Positions 6,584-9,562 of a DNA stretch of 64,000 nt are shown piece after piece. The DNA lies in the NCBI GenBank assembly GCA_021776795.1, contig JAJFFC010000020.1:186001-250000 (forward strand), given 5' to 3'. Positions within the stretch are counted from its first letter, which is position 1. Each line of letters begins with the position of its first letter. The position numbers and the translations under genes are program-made. The DNA comes from Planctomycetota bacterium (GTDB lineage Bacteria; Planctomycetota; UBA1135). Below the pieces are notes generated by a model. It was not told the DNA's origin. It was given only the letters and a program-made list of their open reading frames with translations, and made no database searches.

Positions 6584-7528
6584 CTACTGCGGCAAGCCGT
6601 AAAGGGTGAATTCCTCGCGCAGACGCAGGAGAAGATCCCGAGTCAGAATGATGCCCTGCTCTTCCTCGGGCTCGCCGCCTTCCCACTCCACGCCGACAAA
6701 GCCGTGGTATCCGGCTTTGAGCACAATGCCTAGCATGCGCCGATAGTCGATTTGGCTTTCGTTGCCGGCAGGGCCGAAGCGATTCGACTTTGCACTGACG
6801 GCTTTCGCATATGGCATAAGCTCCTCAACACCCTGGTACTTGTCATACCACTTGCCGTCGCCCAAGTGGAAATTGCCAAAGTCAGGCAAAGTGCCGCAAC
6901 GTGGGTGATCCACCATTTCCATGACCGCGGCTAACCAGGAACCATCGGAACTATGGCCACCATGGTTCTCGACAATGACATTGAGACCGTACTCCTCACC
7001 GACTTCACAAAGCTGATGCAGACCATCGGCGGCGAGGCGCATTTGCTCCTCACGCGCGCCCTTGCTTTGGGCGTTGACGCGAATGCTATGGCAACCCAAA
7101 AACTTGGCCGCGTGCAACCACTTGTGGTGATTCTCGACGGCCTGCTTGCGTTTGGCTTCCTCGGGATCGCCAAGCCAGCCTTCGCCATCGCACATGATCA
7201 AGACAGACTCGACCCCGGCGTCATCGCAGCGGCGCTTCAGTTCACTCAAGTAGCCGCGGTCTTTGGCCTTGTCCTTGAAGAAGGCGTTGACATATTCGAC
7301 GCCCTCGAAGCCCAAACGCCGCGCGGCAGCTGGGAACTCAAGATTGGTCATCTTGCCACCAAACAGGGTCTTGTGCAGGGACCACTCGGCGAGCGAAAGT
7401 CGGAACAAGGGACCACTGTCTTGCGGCTTTGCGCCAAGGGTGCGTGCCCAAACCGGGCGCGGCAGCAATGGGAGGGCGAGGCTGGCTCCGATTCCACGGA
7501 GGAAACGGCGTCGGGAAATTTGGGTCAT
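6584..7528 (-). CDS. Tat-exported sugar phosphate isomerase/epimerase-like TIM-barrel protein
   Basis: About 314 residues. The N-terminus is a twin-arginine signal ('[19 protein letters not shown]', about 4-22). The rest is a xylose-isomerase-like (AP endonuclease 2) TIM barrel with metal-site motifs 'VIVENHGG', '[10 protein letters not shown]' and '[11 protein letters not shown]' (Glu, Asp/His and Glu in the expected order), plus an early 'LSLAEWSLH' strand. Such exported isomerase-like proteins are numerous in planctomycetes and act on sugars or cyclitols; the substrate here is unknown. The ATG at 7528 begins the Tat signal; a longer frame to 7639 has no such signal. It is followed after 7 bases by the methyltransferase gene. 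Confidence 0.85.
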
Positions 7529-7672
7529 GCCCGAGAATAACGTGGGCGTGAATCGCCTGGCAAAAAAGGCTGCCCAGGAGACCAGTCGACCTTCGCCAAC
7601 CCCCACGGTGGAGAAAGCCCAAAAATCCTGATCTCCCAAGCGAGCCGGCAGGGGAACCGGCAGGGAGTGGCG

Positions 7673-8479
7673 TTATTCTCCAGAAGGAGCGACGCCAACC
7701 ATTTCCAGGATAGCACGATGTAGCTTTTCTGGGAGATGCCCCTGGCGCAATTCCTCACAAATCTCTGCGGCCAAATCCATGCCTGCAAAGACAACCTCAC
7801 AGCGCTTACAGACGGCTGCATCGAGCTCAGGAGTCGATTTTTCCCCACGATCTAGGGCTTCCTGCTTGAGCTGCATCAAATCTAGGCATACCTGGCGGGA
7901 ATAATTGGCTGGAGGCACCTTCTGGCGAGGGAGAACGTGGTCTAGAGCCTGGCGCAACTTGAGCCGACCACGGTGGATGCGGGTCTTGACGGTGGCTTCT
8001 TTGAGGCCTGTGATATGGGCAATCTCGCGGATTGGGAACTCGAGGATGTCGCGCAGGATGAGCGGCATGCGAAAGGACAGCGGGAGTTCCAAAATAGCCT
8101 GCTCAAGGTGGCCTACTGCCTCGCGCCGAATTTCCTCATCGAGCGGCGAATCAGGCTCATAAACCCCAAGTTGAGGAGCGCCAAAGGAGGCGAGCTCATC
8201 CAAGGAGGCTACAGCATTCGGTTGACCAACCTTGCGCCGCTGCATGCGCTGACAAGTCCGCGCGGCAATGGTGTAGAGCCAGGTTTTTGGGGTGGAGCGC
8301 CCCTGAAACTGGTGCCAGTCGCGGAAAGCCTGCAGAAAGGTCTCCTGCACTAGGTCTTCCGCCTCTTCCGGCGTGCCGCAAAGTCGGCATCCTAGGGAGT
8401 AAATCATGCCCCCATGCTCTTGGAGTAGAGCGGGAATCGCTTCCATGGCCGGAAGCTTAGGGCTCGAGCTGGTGTCCAT
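7673..8479 (-). CDS. ECF-type RNA polymerase sigma factor with C-terminal Cys-pair extension
   Basis: About 268 residues. Sigma region 2 spans about 27-75 ('AEDLVQETFLQAFRDW', 'TWLYTIAARTC') and region 4 about 130-178 ('REIAHITGLKEATVKTRI'). An unusual tail of about 85 residues contains a cysteine near 'QVCLDLMQLKQEALD' and a 'VCKRCEV' pair, resembling a fused zinc-binding anti-sigma or ZAS-like module that could self-regulate the factor. The start at 8479 is an ATG; the longer frame to 8518 would run through the hairpin at 8496-8531. No separate anti-sigma gene is next to it, consistent with regulation by the tail (inference). Confidence 0.87.
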   Translation of the reverse strand: MDTSSSPKLPAMEAIPALLQEHGGMIYSLGCRLCGTPEEAEDLVQETFLQAFRDWHQFQGRSTPKTWLYTIAARTCQRMQRRKVGQPNAVASLDELASFGAPQLGVYEPDSPLDEEIRREAVGHLEQAILELPLSFRMPLILRDILEFPIREIAHITGLKEATVKTRIHRGRLKLRQALDHVLPRQKVPPANYSRQVCLDLMQLKQEALDRGEKSTPELDAAVCKRCEVVFAGMDLAAEICEELRQGHLPEKLHRAILEMVGVAPSGE

Positions 8480-8495
8480 CGTCCTGCCCCAGCAT

Positions 8496-8531
8496 AGAAG
8501 AGCCGCCGCTCTTCTCACGAAAAGCGGCGGC
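8496..8531 (-). terminator. Intrinsic terminator after the thioredoxin-like gene
   Basis: On the minus strand a 13-bp stem (8502-8514 with 8519-8531, one G-U pair, GTGA-type loop) is followed by a short pyrimidine run TCTTCT (8501-8496). It lies 24 bases after the stop of the thioredoxin-like gene and only 17 bases before the start of the sigma factor gene. It could therefore also act as an attenuator or leader structure for the sigma gene. Confidence 0.7.
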
Positions 8532-8554: not shown

Positions 8555-9562
8555 TTAGGCCGGGTCTTCGCCGAGGATTTCCTTAATGACTTCCTTCTGG
8601 CGGTCATTCAAGTCGCCCATGTCCTTGGCACGTTGGGCCCAAGTCTTGGCGTCCTCTGGCTTATCCAGGTACTGCTTGCAAAAGAAGGCCGAAGCGACCC
8701 AAACGTCGCGCACGACTTCCTTGTCATGAACTTTGCCCGTGTCAAACAGCGTGCCCGCGGCGACGAGGAATTCCTCGAGGTCGGCGAGTTCGCGCAGAGT
8801 GTTGAGCTTGGCAGCAGTCACCGCTTCGAGCAGACCATGCTCGTTGGCAGGGTCGGCAGCAGCAGCGGCGGCAGATTCGTCGGCAGTGGCTTGATTGGAG
8901 GCAAGCAAGGCGGTGAAGGCACTAATCTTGATGCCGGCCTTGTCCTTCGGGTCGAGTTCGAGGCCCTTGCGCACAATCTTGGCTAGAGTTTCGCCACCAA
9001 TGCCGTCGCCCAAATCCTTGAGCTGAGCAATCGCCTTCTTGACGATAGGGATCTTGTCTTCGGCAGCTTCAAAGGCAGTTTCAATCTCTTTGATCTTGGC
9101 CAATGCGGCCTTGCCCTCGGTGCGCTGGGTGAGCACATCGGCGAGATAATCCTCGGGAGTTGCGCCGGTGTAACCACTACGCCCGAAAACTTCGCCCTCT
9201 GGAGTCATCAGCAATACGGTTGGGTAACCCTCGATGCCGTACTGCTCCACCAACTCTTGGTTGCGCTCTGGGTTGGGTACCGCAGCTTTCGCCTCTTCCC
9301 CGTTCGGGAAGTCGAGCGAAACGAGTACATAGGTGTCGACAGCTTTGCCGGTGAACTCTTCCTTCTCCCACACCTCAGCACGGAGGCGTTTGCAGTAAGG
9401 TCACCAGTCAGAGCCGGTGAAGTCGACGAGCAGGTCCTTGCCTTGCTCGGCGGCAACAGCGGCAGCCTTGTCAAAGTCGGTGTACCAGCGGGAGTCATGC
9501 TCCTGCGCGGCAACCGAAGAGAAGCCCGCAAGCAGCAGGCCGAGGGTCAAAATGGTTTTCAT
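8555..9562 (-). CDS. Thioredoxin-family protein, candidate selenoprotein (UPYC active site)
   Basis: Read from the ATG at 9562 to the TAA at 8555-8557, this is a 335-residue exported thioredoxin-fold protein whose only internal stop is a TGA at codon 54. A signal peptide (1-20, ending VAAQ) precedes 'DLLVDFTGSDW', TGA, then 'PYCKRLRAEVWEKEEF'. Related thioredoxin-family proteins have Cys-x-x-Cys after 'TGSDW', so the TGA sits exactly on the first active-site Cys, giving U54-P-Y-C57. The fold continues with the cis-Pro strand 'GYPTVLLM' and an alpha-helical C-terminal half of about 190 residues. A hairpin 18 bases after the TGA fits a bacterial SECIS element. Predicted periplasmic thiol/selenol oxidoreductase. 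A nonsense mutation or a sequencing error is the alternative, but codon use is normal on both sides. Confidence 0.75.
9370..9389 (-). promoter_or_regulatory. Candidate bacterial SECIS hairpin for Sec54
   Basis: In the mRNA, ACGCCUC pairs with GAGGUGU (7 bp, one G-U) around the loop CGUGCU. The loop begins 18 bases after the UGA and has G as its second base. The remembered bacterial SECIS pattern is a loop 16-37 bases after UGA with a G in the first two loop positions. The hairpin lies within the coding sequence just after the active site. Confidence 0.65.
9401..9403 (-). other. In-frame TGA, probable selenocysteine codon (residue 54)
   Basis: The codon reads TGA followed by C on the minus strand, between the Trp codon of 'GSDW' and the Pro codon of 'PYC'. 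It is the only in-frame stop between the ATG at 9562 and the TAA at 8555-8557. Confidence 0.72.

Follow-up and report, generated by a model that had tools for sequence, protein, structure and literature searches.

The window (the whole 64,000-nt stretch of DNA analysed here) comes from an uncultured Planctomycetota draft assembly of 3.26 Mb in 31 contigs (89% complete), and carries at 8555–9562 on the minus strand a complete gene that runs from ATG to TAA with a single interruption. Translation of the minus strand from 9562 to 8555 gives MKTILTLGLLLAGFSSVAAQ...LLVDFTGSDW*PYCKRL...EDPA*, in which the sole internal TGA (9403–9401) falls between TGSDW and PYC, confirming the single in-frame TGA in an otherwise intact gene that a preliminary description of this DNA had reported at 9401–9403. 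From the translation and the orthologue alignment this TGA, codon 54, is almost certainly read as selenocysteine, the first residue of a UPYC motif, giving 335 residues including Sec54 in what would be, with its Pfam match, an exported Thioredoxin_7 protein; the TGC at 9392–9394 (minus strand) encodes Cys57, invariant in the alignment and the predicted resolving Cys of the UxxC. A normal ORF caller returns only 8555–9373 (272 aa, GTG start) and leaves out the active site, the truncation by automatic annotation that had been foreseen, and this 272-codon C-terminal ORF alone has no Pfam matches. The downstream neighbour is an ECF-type sigma factor gene (7673–8518, minus strand), an adjacency kept in several relatives, followed by a xylose-isomerase-like TIM-barrel gene (6584–7639, minus strand) that is also kept in relatives. 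The selenoprotein gene may have a regulatory tie to these two neighbours.

A scan of TAA/TAG-bounded frames across the whole window returned one internal TGA with coding signal on both sides, the codon 54 case, and TGA is the ordinary stop of 10 of the 40 long window ORFs, so we take the genetic code to be standard. An early in-frame stop is what a pseudogene truncated at codon 54 would show, yet about 280 codons past the TGA are open in several lineages with no frameshift and no second stop, and in the pairs compared dN lies far below dS on both sides of the TGA (downstream, for example, dN 0.327 against dS 1.823), with many dS values saturated. Purifying selection acts on the codons 3′ of the TGA, and we regard decay of the gene as very improbable. 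Purifying selection and the kept gene order together argue for a functional cellular gene. No relatives of the gene were present in the viral collection, and Rfam gave no family match at the gene, only two chance hits.

Of the 26 genomes belonging to the same family, 25 contain some match to the gene at E ≤ 0.001. TGA stands at the aligned codon in eight orthologues (38–63% identity) that come from other members of this family, and also in two distant marine (ALOHA) planctomycetes, L116 and L120, which likewise read UPYC; the other orthologues have TGC or TGT there, with the single exception of one TCG (Ser). The TGA thus sits at the exact codon where homologues encode the first Cys of the CxxC, as had been claimed from the DNA alone. 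Because a single base separates TGA from either Cys codon and the source is a draft metagenome assembly, the triplet at codon 54 could be a sequencing or assembly error for TGC or TGT in an ordinary CxxC thioredoxin-like protein, the event that the preliminary description had named as capable of overturning its reading. Error cannot account for a TGA shared with ten orthologues of other assemblies, and it fits poorly with a SECIS-type hairpin that always accompanies the TGA, whose CGUG loop is absent in the Cys genes, and with the Sec machinery of the genome; we give it almost no credence. Among 80 named loci, mostly from uncultured Planctomycetota, the motif matches comprise 67 with C..C, one with S..C and 9 with U..C, most of these nine being records already counted in the family set. 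The Ser orthologue (L039 and L093, the same gene) reads SQWC with TCG at the Sec/Cys position, which from the motif suggests lost redox activity or a monothiol mechanism. Internal TGAs were also flagged in genomes of the same order; the readable named record (Poly30, L111) has Cys at the site, so TGAs of this sort are probably terminal stops.

Downstream of the UGA lies a candidate bSECIS hairpin (9370–9389, minus strand) with a 7-bp stem (9389–9383 paired with 9376–9370) and a 6-nt apical loop, CGUGCU (9382–9377), which has G at loop position 2, begins 18 nt after the UGA and has a local energy of −12.0 kcal/mol. The hairpin described beforehand, of 7 bp with G at the second loop position 18 bases past the UGA, is therefore found as stated, and it falls on every count within the published bSECIS rule, which sets a loop of 3–9 nt, a stem of 4–16 bp, a distance of 16–37 nt from the UGA, G in the first two loop positions and an MFE ≤ −7.5 kcal/mol (PMC13188914). 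Taken alone, the hairpin gives a borderline result in a control with synonymous codons (its energy has p = 0.055 and the 45-nt MFE p = 0.014), so it is not our main argument, and the comparison with relatives carries the case. A hairpin loop beginning CGUG occurs in all 11 TGA genes: eight have it 18 nt after the UGA, and the other three (L025–L027), whose stem is wholly different (UGCACGAA/UUCGUGCA), have it 24 nt after, whereas CGUG at 16–30 nt occurs at none of the 83 Cys sites. The 11 TGA genes are related, so these are not 11 independent observations, and the CGUG loop is partly due to Arg-Glu/Ala/Val codons and common ancestry. The hairpins of L022 and L023 are weak (−7.3 and −6.5 kcal/mol against the published threshold of −7.5). 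CGUG-loop SECIS elements make up a testable class.

The components for selenocysteine insertion are encoded in the same genome: a tRNA-Sec (70.8 bits, over the Rfam cut-off) that ARAGORN also calls as tRNA-SeC(TCA) at the same gene, SelB (272.8 bits, above its cut-off, in a 685-aa frame where the C-terminal part of SelB gives a match of its own), SelA (440 bits) and SelD (288 bits), the last with an internal TGA at SGUAAK. All four genes that the preliminary description had proposed searching for (selA, selB, selD and that of tRNA-Sec) are thus present, and the genome lacking SelB and tRNA-Sec that would have spoken against it is not what was found. Sec and Cys orthologues cannot be told apart by the presence of SelA, since almost every genome of the family carries it. 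The SelD gene (L018:1486–2517, plus strand, contig C4) lies directly upstream of the tRNA-Sec gene and reads MTPEKRLIDYAASSGUAAKLPQ, with TGA at the usual catalytic Cys/Sec codon, so that SelD would itself be a selenoprotein; a simple fold gave no clear SECIS hairpin for it.

Recoded TGA exists in some bacteria, and the codon might on that account be decoded as Trp or by general readthrough. Against this stand the ordinary use of TGA as a stop in the window, an aligned residue that is Cys and not Trp, the presence of tRNA-Sec, SelA, SelB and SelD, and the position of the other TGAs of this genome at catalytic Cys/Sec sites (SelD, VPGU and an MsrA-like UFW); we find such decoding hardly believable. 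We infer from these comparisons that the window gene is a genuine bacterial selenoprotein gene, at a probability of about 96%, the Cys of the homologues, the bSECIS-type hairpin and the Sec machinery all supporting what had been put forward as a probable selenoprotein.

The tree (83 rows, 11 Sec and 72 non-Sec) offers a natural series of Sec/Cys exchange. At least three state changes are needed, two of them forced by starred (supported) branches. The Cys gene L024 is nested within the main Sec group, and this placement suggests a change from Sec to Cys. A single clade of all Sec genes was not rejected (AU p = 0.456), so independent origins of Sec are not claimed. The two ALOHA genes look mosaic: over the 40 nt after the UGA, L120 is 85% identical to the Sec orthologue L021 and 78% to the window, yet 45% to the Cys homologues L099, L089 and L078, to which it is 80–87% identical over the 75 nt upstream. 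L116 has nearly the same sequence as L120, and the protein segments of both show the same pattern, a post-UGA stretch like that of the Sec orthologues and a remainder like the Cys homologues. The pattern may stem from recombination limited to the recoding segment, or from constraint together with convergence. One speculation, which we consider unlikely, is that the UGA and the SECIS stretch form a short unit that passes from one orthologous gene to another or originates in them more than once; if true, Sec would have been gained by gene conversion acting locally on a recoding cassette, or there would have been a striking convergence on a single CGUG-loop hairpin.

The encoded protein appears to consist of a signal peptide, a thioredoxin-fold domain of the Thioredoxin_7/DsbH/DsbDgamma kind and a helical C-terminal domain, as read from sequence and from a structure model (pLDDT 88.5). 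The putative signal peptide, residues 1–20 (MKTILTLGLLLAGFSSVAAQ; 9503–9562, minus strand), was assigned by sequence reading, its start and hydrophobic run being aligned in all orthologues; residues 1–23 have pLDDT < 50 in the model. The thioredoxin-fold domain, approximately residues 25–145 (9128–9490, minus strand), is delimited by Pfam, the alignment, the model and structural matches, the read-through protein scoring 61.7 bits to Thioredoxin_7 (PF13899) and 57.6 bits to Thioredoxin_2 (PF13098), both against a cut-off of 27. In the model Sec54 lies immediately N-terminal to the helix 55–65 of the fold, and Pro114, at the YPT/FPT position, is invariant in the alignment and a candidate for the cis-Pro. 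The best PDB match of the domain is DsbH (2ju5), with a TM-score by target length of 0.73; 3ira, 3f9u and DsbDgamma come next, and sequence profiles agree. The C-terminal domain, approximately residues 146–335 (8558–9127, minus strand), is all-helical in the model with weak TPR-like similarity, its sole sequence hints being weak matches to designed TPRs.

Ribosomes translating the mRNA would encounter the UGA at codon 54, where SelB bound to the hairpin and carrying Sec-tRNA-Sec would deliver selenocysteine, as the machinery and the conserved hairpin imply, to yield the 335-residue product. Once exported by its signal peptide, the protein would presumably attack extracytoplasmic disulfides or oxidised thiols through the selenolate of Sec54. 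Cys57 would then resolve the intermediate, and re-reduction would fall to an electron donor in the membrane, for which this genome offers a candidate in its DsbD homologue (a DsbD-type frame, L132, assigned by sequence reading). In most relatives a CxxC protein does this work. The protein may instead be a selenoprotein with a role other than that of a disulfide reductase fed by DsbD: an oxidase or isomerase, a reductase linked to peroxide, or a chaperone-like protein in which the helical domain takes the lead. The C-terminal half is without known function and the thioredoxin domain resembles DsbH, DsbDgamma and PDI, both of which leave room for such a role, whereas the best structural and profile matches are domains of the reducing type and a DsbD homologue is encoded in the genome, though neither settles the role; we treat these other functions as a serious contender that is, on balance, the less probable. 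The DsbD-fed disulfide reductase is the role we favour.

Thioredoxin-fold UxxC selenoproteins are numerous in two existing catalogues (PMC13188914, PMC9312934), among them a thiol:disulfide interchange protein whose domain is Thioredoxin_2 and whose motif is UxxC; a Thioredoxin_7/PDZ protein is listed too, its motif being CxxU. The first of these (PF13098; representative WP_011366075.1, compared by description) shares with the window protein the thioredoxin fold, the UxxC and a disulfide-exchange type, and by domain the window protein would qualify, with its Thioredoxin_2 score of 57.6 bits over 27 and its UPYC, although overlap in Pfam alone is no proof of one family. Unlike that entry, the window protein scores higher to Thioredoxin_7 and ends in a helical domain some 190 residues long. 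The Trx7/PDZ (seleno)protein NF041199 likewise has a Thioredoxin_7 domain and uses Sec, but its catalogued motif is CxxU against UxxC here, and the window protein reaches 23.6 bits against its cut-off of 300. The DsbH disulfide reductase (NF043050; 2ju5) is the best match of the thioredoxin domain in NCBIfam as well as in the PDB, but the score of 71.1 bits lies below its cut-off of 190, DsbH has Cys and not Sec, and the helical C-terminal domain is absent from DsbH, as its model spans 166 positions. The VPGUxxT thioredoxin-like selenoproteins (NF041382/NF041383), planctomycete and encoded in the same genome as the window gene, are a different family, which the window protein does not match at E ≤ 0.1.

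No NCBIfam model reaches its cut-off with the window protein, and no Thioredoxin_7 UxxC entry with a helical C-terminal domain was found in the catalogues of PMC13188914 or PMC9312934. Use of Sec by Planctomycetes is reported (PMC4807772), and the candidates of that work may include an earlier listing of this family. The novelty claimed beforehand accordingly stands as to a family uncatalogued in these two catalogues and in NCBIfam, and was overstated in that thioredoxin-fold selenoproteins with UxxC already form a large and familiar kind; the window protein would therefore represent a new family or subfamily within that kind and no surprise of principle. It adds a well-supported UxxC selenoprotein family with Cys homologues across Planctomycetota, one that pipelines would cut to 272 aa, and draws attention to a lineage of marine planctomycetes that uses Sec and has several selenoproteins of the thioredoxin-like type.

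The remaining selenoproteome of the genome was sampled by family searches. One gene on contig C23 (L133:1375–2391, plus strand) encodes a VPGUxxT type-2 protein (NF041383, 380.8 bits, cut-off 275) and contains two internal TGAs. One gives VPGU; the other, in MSUFW, occupies the catalytic position of a segment resembling MsrA. The product is apparently a double selenoprotein. Another, on contig C9 (L134:961–1896, minus strand), encodes a 312-aa exported thioredoxin-like protein with one internal TGA in SYSPUGPC, for which no NCBIfam model scored above its cut-off. Its relatives in L041, L043 and L044 have UPPC and GGUC-type loops, and it is probably another uncatalogued selenoprotein family.
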